Assembly (NCBI GenBank): GCA_020072585.1
Contig: JAIQGL010000006.1
Span: forward strand, 165,808-211,233
DNA from: Terriglobia bacterium
GTDB taxonomy: Bacteria > Acidobacteriota > Terriglobia > Terriglobales > Acidobacteriaceae
Direction: 5' to 3'
Length of the DNA: 45,426 nucleotides
The notes below the pieces were generated by a model, which did no database searches, had not been told where the DNA came from, and saw nothing but the letters and a program-made list of their open reading frames with translations. This document shows positions 41,120-43,851 of this stretch, piece by piece; position 1 is the stretch's first letter, and each line of letters opens with the position of its first letter. The translations under genes were made by a program, and so were the position numbers.

Positions 41120-41647
41120 CTACTTCGTCGGCTCCATCTGTAACGCATCATTGAAACGGTTGAAATAGTTGAACAGCCCAATCGCGGCCAGCAGCTCTAC
41201 AACTTCGCCCTCGTCAAAGTGCCGCCGCAGCTCGCTCCAGAGCTGGTCATCCACGGTATGCGCGTCGCGGGTAACGCGTTCGGCCAGCCGCAGCGCGGCT
41301 TTTTCTTTTTCCGTGAAGTCGTCGCGTTGCTCAAAGTTGGCCAGGTCCTTGATCTGATCGTCCGTCCAGCCATGCCGTCTTGCCAAGACGGTGTGTGACG
41401 CCAGTCAATACTCGCAACGGTTGATCTGCGTGGTGCGGACGATGATCAGCTCTTTCAGCTTTGCCGGGACCGTCCCGGTTTCCATCACGGCGCGGAAATG
41501 CGCCACCATGGTCCGCATGATCTCGGGCCGGTGCGCAACCGTGCGAAACATGTTGGGGATATTGCCGCGCACTTTCATGAAGTGGTCATAAACTTCAGCC
41601 ACTTCCGGCGGGGCCGCTGCTCGATCAACGCGTGAGATTCTGGGCAT
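41120..41647 (-). CDS. AhpD/CMD-family protein, candidate selenoprotein (in-frame TGA = Sec)
   Basis: The frame runs from ATG 41647 to 41120 with one in-frame TGA at 41407-41405. Upstream: M-P-R-I-S-R-V-D-R-A-A, L-K-E-L-I-I-V-R-T, then N-R-C-E-Y; downstream: L-A-S-H-T-V-L-A-R-R-H-G-W-T, ending F-N-Y-F-N-R-F-N-D-A-L. Both parts are normal AhpD-like carboxymuconolactone-decarboxylase-family sequence, and TGA stands at the second cysteine of C-x-x-C. Read as selenocysteine it gives 175 aa with C-E-Y-U. A hairpin 13 nt later fits a SECIS. Such proteins reduce peroxides or act on redox substrates. Alternative: a pseudogene by one nonsense change. It follows the RsbV-like gene on the same strand. 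Confidence 0.7.
41375..41391 (-). promoter_or_regulatory. Candidate bacterial SECIS hairpin
   Basis: On the minus strand CCGTCTT-GGC-AAGACGG forms a perfect 7-bp stem with loop GGC. 13 nt separate the TGA from the stem and 20 nt from the loop, inside the range of bacterial SECIS elements (about 16-37 nt), and the loop starts with G as required. It lies in coding sequence, as expected for bacteria. Confidence 0.6.
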
Positions 41648-41694: not shown

Positions 41695-42042
41695 TTACTT
41701 GGTGAATGATTGAATGGCTGCTGCTTCATCGTCCTTGATGTCAAAGACGGTATAGAGCTTGGTGATCTGCAGCAGGTCATGGACTTTCTTGGTAAGGTTC
41801 AGCAGTTTCAGTTCGCCGCCTTCACGCCGCACGGCGGTAAATGCGCTCACCAATTCGCCAATGCCCGAGCTGTCGATATACGTAACATCGCCCAGGTTCA
41901 GCAGGATCTTTTTCTGCCCTTTGCCCACCAGGTCGCGGATGCTGTCACGCAGTACCACGCTGCCCTCTCCCAGGGTGATGCGGCCGCTCATGTCCACAAC
42001 GGTGACGCCGTCCACTTGCCGATTGCTTGCTTTCATGCTCAC
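41695..42042 (-). CDS. STAS-domain anti-sigma-factor antagonist (RsbV/SpoIIAA-like)
   Basis: This 115-aa protein is one STAS domain with the phosphorylatable motif Y-I-D-S-S-G-I-G-E-L. In partner switching, dephosphorylated antagonist binds the kinase and frees a sigma factor or other target. It begins at GTG 42042, overlapping the stop of the RsbW-like gene by 4 bp; GGAGG lies 9 nt upstream. Partner of the adjacent kinase and of the phosphatase two genes upstream. Confidence 0.93.
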   Translation of the reverse strand: MSMKASNRQVDGVTVVDMSGRITLGEGSVVLRDSIRDLVGKGQKKILLNLGDVTYIDSSGIGELVSAFTAVRREGGELKLLNLTKKVHDLLQITKLYTVFDIKDDEAAAIQSFTK

Positions 42043-42485
42043 TGTGCTTCCTCCTCCTTGGCATTTGCCGCGTTGCGGCCGGTATGCTTGATCAATGTGA
42101 CTTCTGTCCCCGGGTTCGTGTTCCGGATCTTCACTTCGTCCATGAAAGCACGAATCAGAAAAATCCCACGCCCTGAGCCCTTCATCAGGTTTTCCGGGGC
42201 CAGCGGATCAGGCAGGGAGTCCGGGTCCAGTCCCTTGCCTTGATCTGTGATAGTGATGACCAGGGCATCGCGTGTGGTTTCATACGCCACCATAAATCTT
42301 TTTCCCGGATCATAAGCATTGCCGTGCAGTACCGCGTTCACGGCCGCCTCGCGCACTGCCATGGCCACCTGGTACTGCTCGTCTTCGGCCAGTCCCGCGC
42401 GGGCAGCAACCTCTGACGCTTTTTGCTCAGCCTGATTGACGCTTTCCAGGGTTGATTCCAACGTGTAAGAGACCCGATTTGTCAT
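42039..42485 (-). CDS. GHKL-type serine kinase / anti-sigma factor (RsbW/SpoIIAB-like)
   Basis: This ~148-aa protein has the GHKL ATP-binding motifs of RsbW: N-box R-E-A-A-V-N-A-V-L-H-G-N, G1 D-Q-G-K-G-L-D, and G2 K-G-S-G-R-G-I-F-L. It phosphorylates the STAS partner. The start is ATG 42485; a GTG at 42497 is in frame. No sigma-factor gene is adjacent, so it may control something else. Confidence 0.92.
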   Translation of the reverse strand: MTNRVSYTLESTLESVNQAEQKASEVAARAGLAEDEQYQVAMAVREAAVNAVLHGNAYDPGKRFMVAYETTRDALVITITDQGKGLDPDSLPDPLAPENLMKGSGRGIFLIRAFMDEVKIRNTNPGTEVTLIKHTGRNAANAKEEEAQ

Positions 42486-42656
42486 GGGGCGGTTCACTAA
42501 AGTGTTTGTTTTTTACGCGGCCTGGGCGAACACACTTCTGGGTAGAATCTTTAAGTGTGCCTATGCGGGTGGCGAGTTGTCAAACGCAGAATTGCTAAAA
42601 ATCAGCGGCCAACCTTCCTTTTAGCCGCGCTTAGGTAGATAGACGCCAATGATCAT

Positions 42657-43655
42657 TCAGCTTTGCGCTACTCCTTCTGGGACGAACTGCAGGACCATCA
42701 ACGCCTGATCGTCCAGCCGGGGCGATCCCGCGCGGAACGCCAGGACTTCCTTCAGGCACTTCTCCACCAGTTCGTGCGACGCCAGTTCACGGCAGCCCGC
42801 CAGCAGCTTTTCCAATGCAGCCACGCCATATTCTGCGCCGTCAGGGCTTTCAGCTTCAGAAATTCCATCCGTATAGATCACCAGGCTGTCCCCCGGAACA
42901 GCGCGCAAGGATGTGGTGGAAAACTTCTGGTCACAGAACAACCCTACCGGGACGGTGGCCGCTTCAATGGCTTTCACCCCGTGCTGCCCCGCGTGAAACG
43001 GTGCTGGATGGCCGCCATTGCAGATTTCCACGTTGCCGAACTCGTCCGCCTTGCCCACGATCAGCGTTGCGTACTGTGTAGGCAGCGTGCTCTCGCAGAA
43101 CAGCCGGTTGGCGCGCTCCACCAGTTGCTCCAGCGGGAGTCCCATGGGAATCAGCACACGAAACATGGCATGCAGATTGGACATAAGCATGGCTGCGGCA
43201 ACGCCTTTGCCGGAAACATCACCCACCATGAAATAAAGATCTTTGCCATTCTGGACCAGGTCACAATAATCGCCGCTTACCTGACCTGCCGGCTCATAAT
43301 GGTAGGCCACCTTCCATCCGGCGGCTGAAAAGCCCTTTTTGGGCAGCAGACCGGCCTGGATTCTGGCTGCCAGATGCAAATCCTGCTCCAGGGCGCGCTG
43401 TTCAGAGGGCTTAAGGCAGTCCAGGCAGATTGCGGTGAGCGGGTCGGCAAACAGGCGCTCTGCTTCCACTGAGGTCTTGCACACTTCGCAAATGCCGTAA
43501 TTGCCGTGGTCCACGCGTTCCAGCGCGCGGTCCACCTGTTCCAGTAGCTGGAGCAGGTTCGCGGTTTCGCTCCGGGCGACCGCGGTTTCCAGTTTTTGCC
43601 GCCGAACCACCAGTTGGTCGCGCAGCATGTGCAGGTCTGTTACCTGAATACCCAT
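42657..43655 (-). CDS. PP2C-type phosphatase (RsbU/SpoIIE-like) fused to a DksA/TraR zinc finger
   Basis: This 332-aa protein has an N-terminal helical DksA/TraR-like region (1-50), a four-cysteine zinc finger (C56, C59, C77, C80) and a PP2C-type SpoIIE domain from about 115: V-S-G-D-Y-C-D (126-132), V-G-D-V-S-G-K-G (144-151), and D-G-I-S-E-A-E near the C-terminus. RsbU-type enzymes dephosphorylate RsbV; the zinc finger replaces the usual sensor. AGGAGC precedes ATG 43655; an upstream in-frame ATG is unlikely. It heads the partner-switching gene cluster. Confidence 0.92.
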   Translation of the reverse strand: MGIQVTDLHMLRDQLVVRRQKLETAVARSETANLLQLLEQVDRALERVDHGNYGICEVCKTSVEAERLFADPLTAICLDCLKPSEQRALEQDLHLAARIQAGLLPKKGFSAAGWKVAYHYEPAGQVSGDYCDLVQNGKDLYFMVGDVSGKGVAAAMLMSNLHAMFRVLIPMGLPLEQLVERANRLFCESTLPTQYATLIVGKADEFGNVEICNGGHPAPFHAGQHGVKAIEAATVPVGLFCDQKFSTTSLRAVPGDSLVIYTDGISEAESPDGAEYGVAALEKLLAGCRELASHELVEKCLKEVLAFRAGSPRLDDQALMVLQFVPEGVAQS

Positions 43656-43851
43656 AAAAGCTCCTGTTCTAAGGATCATTTTGGCACAATGAAGATTCAG
43701 ATTATTCGCTCTTAGTCTTCGTACGGAAACAGATTAGCTGGGCTCTCCGCCGGGCGCTATCCGTGTTTTGCTATGAAACAAATGCCGGCAAAAACAAGAT
43801 TTGCTCTGGCCACGGCAAACCACATTGGGTATTCTGCATTCATAGGCAATC

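Follow-up and report, generated by a model that had tools for sequence, protein, structure and literature searches.

Results

Organization of the locus

The stretch of DNA analysed here (the window) comprises 45,426 nucleotides from a member of the Terriglobia, and on its minus strand, at positions 41120..41647 with the stop codon included, lies an AhpD/CMD-family gene interrupted by a single in-frame TGA. When the frame was re-read on the minus strand from 41647 to 41120, it ran for 80 codons to the TGA (41407..41405) and for a further 94 codons to the stop; coordinates and codon counts agree with the preliminary description of this locus, in which the strand was not given. Read as selenocysteine (Sec), the UGA (41405..41407) is codon 81 of a 175-residue product and falls in the sequence N-R-C-E-Y-U-L-A-S-H. 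The claim that it stands at the second cysteine of a C-E-Y-C motif is borne out, since position 81 of C78-E-Y-U81 is the second cysteine position of C-x-Y-C and aligns with the Cys of homologues. With the TGA read as Cys, the product matches the Pfam CMD model PF02627 (E 1.3e-20; 73.6 against a cut-off of 23) and NCBIfam TIGR01926 (peroxidase-related; 92.2 bits, above the curated cut-off of 81.8). The gene start, an ATG at 41647, was set by alignment alone, and no clear ribosome-binding site was seen before it on inspection by eye. Plasmid records gave no match at E 1e-20.

Past the UGA lies a bacterial SECIS-type hairpin (41375..41391, minus strand), in which a 7-bp stem encloses a GGC loop (41382..41384) that starts 20 nt past the UGA. 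Upstream of the selenoprotein gene, and also on the minus strand, are genes resembling those of Rsb partner-switching systems. A STAS-domain (RsbV-type) gene at 41695..42042 is separated from it by 47 nt and is overlapped by a HATPase_c_2 gene for an RsbW-type anti-sigma kinase (42039..42497). Farther upstream, at 42657..43679, a SpoIIE-type (RsbU-type) phosphatase and an N-terminal DksA/TraR-type zinc finger are encoded as one protein. The weak terminator-like site between the RsbU- and RsbW-type genes is no more than would be expected by chance.

Conservation of the TGA among homologues

In a family sample of 300 genomes, 202 matched the gene at E <= 1e-15, among the matches listed. The high-scoring orthologue group among these comprised about 90 genomes, 30 with the TGA and 60 without a stop; the matches in TGA genomes G090 and G078 are partial, as is one further match, in G237. 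Lower-scoring family matches are paralogues, several of which likewise carry one TGA. We read 50 family loci singly, namely those of all 30 TGA genomes and of 20 Cys genomes (8 top matches and 12 picked by hand), and codon 81 was TGA in 30, TGC in 18 and TGT in 2, a proportion that reflects the chosen sample. With the top 80 of 173 named loci added, there were 130 loci, including duplicates of the same genomes, with 43 TGA, 79 TGC and 8 TGT at this codon and 99 distinct proteins (30 U, 69 C). Candidatus Angelobacter sp. Gp1-AA117 was the nearest record with a Candidatus genus name (79%) among the best 80 of the 173 named loci. Its match lies at coordinates identical to those in genome G134, which is assigned to the genus of the source genome, and the window is thus probably from Candidatus Angelobacter. 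Across the phylum, 28 of 396 sampled genomes matched at E <= 1e-45. Thirteen of these matches fall inside the family (5 with TGA, 8 with none) and 15 outside it (14 with TGA, 1 with none); in all 14 outside-family TGA homologues the TGA is at codon 81 and there is no further stop.

The window gene itself has no other lesion. The preliminary description had looked to related strains for further stops or frameshifts, and one of the 30 family UGA homologues, that of G078, is indeed found as two overlapping pieces and appears frameshifted.

Active site and selection across the UGA

The AlphaFold model, built from 46 rows with Cys in place of Sec, has a mean pLDDT of 94.3, and its top matches among solved structures are 2PRR (TM 0.88), PA0269 and the debrominase Bmp8. 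The accessible part of the PA0269 study (PMC3141380) gives a relay of Glu36, Cys48, Tyr50, Cys51 and His55 and reports weak H2O2 reduction. The spacing of Glu66, Cys78, Tyr80, Sec81 and His85 equals that of the PA0269 residues 36/48/50/51/55, and all five AhpD-type relay residues are present. Cys78, Tyr80 and His85 occur in each of the 30 family UGA rows and Glu66 in 29 of them; Cys is also found at position 78 in all 14 outside-family UGA homologues. Among the 69 distinct Cys rows, position 78 is Thr in 51 and Cys in 18, and the large TxYC branch that these Thr-containing forms make up may have a different way of working. Thr in place of the first active-site cysteine is seen in L169 as well, a Cys form from outside the family. 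Sec without its partner Cys78 was not seen in the loci read, a pattern that would fit a selenenylsulfide cycle.

The UGA might instead be a true stop, yielding an 80-residue protein with or without a second protein that starts at the TTG at 41386. Such an arrangement is what the mechanical ORF list presents, where the gene appears as separate ORFs of 80 and 88 aa. According to the available portion of PMC1088965, misannotation of such selenoprotein genes is almost universal; the present gene is cut in two by the ORF list. Termination at codon 81 would split the relay set, parting Cys78 from position 81 and His85, whereas in the Cys homologues listed the frame is open over the whole match. When the window gene was compared with 27 UGA homologues (L057 and L058 left out; one comparison without a valid dS), dN was well below dS both before and after the TGA; the dN/dS values with L022, for example, were 0.031/0.869 before it and 0.064/0.704 after. 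The codons past the TGA are under purifying selection. The likeness of selection on the two sides, the split relay set and the open frame of the Cys homologues listed make a true stop very improbable.

A co-varying hairpin downstream of the UGA

The hairpin, CCGUCUU-GGC-AAGACGG (41391..41375), was correctly described at the outset as a 7-bp stem with a GGC loop, the hairpin starting 13 nt past the TGA. In the bSECIS model, as given in the part of PMC13188914 available, a stem of 4-16 bp carries a loop of 3-9 nt with a G in loop positions 1-2, lies 16-37 nt from the UGA and has a minimum free energy of <= -7.5 kcal/mol. The window hairpin agrees with the loop, stem and spacing rules (3-nt GGC, 7 bp, 20 nt). 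Its energy is -7.4 kcal/mol for the 17-nt stem and -11 for 37 nt. The folding check proposed in the preliminary description was thus favourable for loop, stem and spacing, and for covariation in relatives, and marginal on the energy rule for the 17-nt stem. Fold z-scores were 0.02 for 81 nt, -0.91 for 37 nt and -3.53 for the 17-nt stem. In synonymous-codon shuffles, 12% of the sequences carried some hairpin of at least 7 bp in an allowed place (loops of 3-14 nt), and 0.02% had 7 pairs at exactly the place of the hairpin. A scan of the window with Rfam gave no match at gathering thresholds. We set aside the single-sequence fold as proof of a SECIS element: the z-scores are not decisive, and for several UGA homologues, L022 and L026 among them, the optimal fold lacks the stem. 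Taken singly, the hairpin of the window gene is modest evidence.

It is conservation across homologues that raises the hairpin far above chance. All 7 pairs are formed in 28 of the 30 family UGA loci, with 6 in one and 2 in another (L041); outside the family, the stem is complete in 13 of the 14 UGA loci and one pair short in the other, so that 6 or 7 of the 7 pairs are present in 43 of all 44 UGA loci. The GGC loop is kept in 29 of the 30 family UGA loci and is GTT in L058. By comparison, Cys loci show 0-4 pairs (20 family loci read) or 0-5 (69 distinct), and the lone Cys locus outside the family shows 2. Pairing amounts to 97.7% of cells over the 44 UGA loci, and there are 56 two-sided compensatory cells, with two-sided changes at 6 of the 7 pairs; relatedness inflates such covariation counts, and slid controls that retained it were 35-55% paired. 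None of 500 shuffles reached the observed percentage paired, two-sided cells or covariation score. Two other measures were reached more often: how many pairs change on both sides, in 38 of 500 shuffles, and how many pair types occur, in 124 of 500. Pairing is 22.9% in the 20 Cys loci, no better than shuffles. Synonymous variation follows the same division, being 0.13 in stem codons against 0.35 elsewhere in UGA rows (5 codons, 27 rows; L031, L057 and L058 left out) and 0.51 against 0.34 in Cys rows (3 codons, 69 rows).

The exceptional UGA copy at L041:1735-1785 (minus strand, genome G032) has lost the usual stem (2 of 7 pairs), yet selB and tRNA-Sec are both present in that genome. This copy may use another hairpin, or may be changing.

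These comparisons also bear on the view that the gene is dead, a Cys codon (TGC or TGT) having turned to TGA in the strain or in the assembly. The TGA is one base from either codon and the assembly behind the window is a draft in 74 contigs, but the conservation of TGA at this codon by 30 genomes of the family and by 14 of 15 homologues from outside it, the purifying selection past the TGA and the restriction of the co-varying hairpin to TGA copies leave a pseudogene or sequencing error with a negligible probability.

Selenocysteine machinery and its co-occurrence with the UGA form

The source genome (G000), in which the window is C23:165808-211233, is a draft of 6.9 Mb in 74 contigs, 96.8% complete. 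The search for selA, selB, selD and selC that had been suggested found all four: selA (542.7 bits), selB (385.2 bits), selD (371.5 bits) and tRNA-Sec (73.9 bits; anticodon tca by ARAGORN). A second tRNA-Sec model match above the cut-off (47.5 bits, on contig C3) is a tRNA-Ser by ARAGORN, and 5 of 14 control genomes also gave matches over the cut-off of this model; we therefore relied on the 73.9-bit match alone.

Five further UGA-containing selenoprotein candidates are present in this genome, namely selD itself, three formate-dehydrogenase (FDH)-type genes and an AhpD-like paralogue. The FDH-type genes have their in-frame TGA in the contexts RTUHAP, RVUHGP and RIUHSS, at the place occupied by Sec in formate dehydrogenases, and all are under the cut-off of TIGR01591, the sole FDH model searched. 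One of them (L155, G000:C1:311901-313784) is about 16 kb from tRNA-Sec; the others are L157 (G000:C48) and L158 (G000:C66). The paralogue (L071:1432-1947, plus strand, G000:C33) has its in-frame TGA in ECPF-U-ID (CPFU), followed by a 6-bp hairpin with a GGG loop, and scores 91.4 bits against NF053654, the YciW-related (seleno)protein model, under the cut-off of 310.

Within the family, machinery searches covered 80 of the 90 orthologue genomes (30 of 30 UGA, 50 of 60 Cys). A selB match above the cut-off was found in 28 of 30 UGA-form and 13 of 50 Cys-form genomes (p 1.7e-9, kinship ignored), and tRNA-Sec in 24 of 30 and 12 of 50, respectively (p 1.7e-6). Under stricter filters, the tRNA-Sec search found nothing at E 1e-11 in six of the 30 UGA genomes. 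Of the two UGA genomes lacking a selB match above the cut-off, G211 (81% complete) has a partial SelB-like match, and G029 has tRNA-Sec; the sole G029 match in the selB search looks, by its length, like EF-Tu. The UGA might instead be read through without Sec, a near-cognate tRNA inserting Trp or Cys. Although compatible with the DNA data alone, this is exceedingly unlikely, since the UGA form goes with selB and tRNA-Sec and the loop, stem and spacing of the hairpin agree with the SECIS model.

Discussion

A probable selenium-dependent AhpD-like protein

By computation we show the in-frame UGA and its co-varying hairpin, the presence of the decoding machinery, selection on the gene and a matching active site. 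With this evidence it is highly probable that the UGA is decoded as Sec via SelB, tRNA-Sec and the hairpin; the product would work by selenol chemistry. The earlier proposal of a C-E-Y-U selenoprotein of 175 aa is strongly supported by the sel machinery, the conservation of the TGA and the co-varying hairpin. Judged from sequence, the apparently truncated gene of a soil acidobacterium almost certainly encodes a complete selenium-containing protein of antioxidant type.

The gene product is predicted to be an AhpD-like (TIGR01926) thiol/selenol oxidoreductase. SelB and tRNA-Sec would decode the in-frame UGA as Sec under the direction of the GGC-loop hairpin downstream. The Sec would occupy the second CxxC position, where PA0269 has Cys51 and Mycobacterium tuberculosis AhpD has Cys133, and together with Glu66, Cys78, Tyr80 and His85 it would complete the proton relay of AhpD. 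The most likely reaction is an attack of the Sec selenolate on a peroxide or a disulfide. Cys78 would then resolve Sec as a selenenylsulfide, which a cellular thiol reductant would reduce. What we infer goes further, to the insertion of Sec itself and to the chemistry, substrate and physiological role of the protein.

The rsb neighbourhood

Twenty-nine UGA loci have 600 nt or more of upstream sequence, and in 24 of them an RsbV match ends no more than 240 nt from the selenoprotein gene; it is about 960 nt away in L025 and L031 and absent in L033, L041 and L058. RsbV lies beside 2 of the 69 Cys loci, 50 of which have at least 600 nt upstream (2 of 50). The RsbU-type phosphatase was matched in 3 of 30 UGA loci, with about 1.5 kb upstream covered, and its linkage to the selenoprotein gene is not established. 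We rejected the Rsb linkage as a general feature, as no match lies beside any of the 15 outside-family homologues (about 1.4 kb upstream); the linkage is therefore a property of the clade. Moreover, the UGA rows are essentially one clade, and so it possibly reflects shared ancestry and not function.

In the tree, the two Cys loci with rsb genes upstream (L040 and L042) cluster with the UGA clade. Reversion is hinted at by the tree (2 changes) and by the retention of rsbW-rsbV upstream of these two among the three nested Cys copies. Nevertheless, the branches that nest the three copies are under the star level and a single UGA clade was not rejected (p-AU 0.188), and the claim that they are reversions was dropped.

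The arrangement in this one family invites the speculation that the Sec-AhpD provides the redox component of a partner-switching circuit, in which the Sec-Cys pair might sense peroxide or be the first output of the regulon, with RsbW and RsbV relaying the signal. We regard this as improbable; if true, a sigma-factor-type stress switch would have an input that depends on selenium. Our literature search found no link of selenocysteine or a selenoprotein to an anti-sigma factor antagonist or to partner switching, papers on the Leptospira transcriptome and on C. difficile sigma-V being judged unrelated. The rsbW-rsbV neighbourhood is a testable functional lead.

Comparison with known systems

As the preliminary description noted, AhpD-like selenoproteins have been reported; those of the CxxU type have been in print since 2005: the accessible portion of PMC1088965 reports 27 AhpD-like CXXU sequences and SECIS-like hairpins downstream of them. 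Further AhpD-like selenoproteins, for example from Alkaliphilus metalliredigenes, are listed in the part of PMC1794560 available, which puts the acidobacterial tally at 4 selenoproteins from 3 families, not named there. As far as their available text goes, the reviews PMC9312934 and PMC13188914 (2026) include the AhpD-like CxxU selenoprotein, the latter under TIGR01926, and PMC12013277 describes 3 known selenoprotein genes in the acidobacterium Occallatibacter riparius. We found no report of the present acidobacterial AhpD-like UGA group in a literature search that had most subscription journals outside its scope.

The selenoprotein gene is real and is a further member of the already recognised AhpD-like CxxU kind. 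It adds a well-supported selenoprotein group to the Acidobacteriota, and it offers a natural comparison within one orthologue family, in which the SECIS stem is kept by compensatory changes with UGA and is missing with Cys.

Two related NCBIfam models, for proteins that NCBI terms (seleno)proteins, have the superfamily in common with our protein, which belongs to neither of them: it scores 85.9 bits against an equivalog cut-off of 310 for NF053654 and 43.4 bits against 175 for NF041238 (AhpD_rel_CFYUT, AhpD-related CFYUT (seleno)protein). The Cys-type AhpD-like proteins PA0269 (2O4D/2IJC/7XW1) and 2PRR have the same fold and active-site spacing, but carry Cys where Sec stands here, and the PA0269 alignment spans query residues 40-173 only. 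M. tuberculosis AhpD (1LW1) is a weak fold match (E 0.095); its relay, in the source text available, is Glu-Cys-His-Cys-His, the middle His of which is replaced here by Tyr80. The AhpD-like selenoprotein of COG2128/TIGR01926, in the accessible parts of PMC1088965, PMC1794560, PMC9312934 and PMC13188914, shares the family model and the CxxU motif. The published examples seen in these parts are from the Sargasso Sea and Alkaliphilus metalliredigenes, whereas the present genes form an acidobacterial orthologue group, which differs from them in a conserved GGC-loop element of its own and, within a single family, in having rsbW-rsbV upstream.
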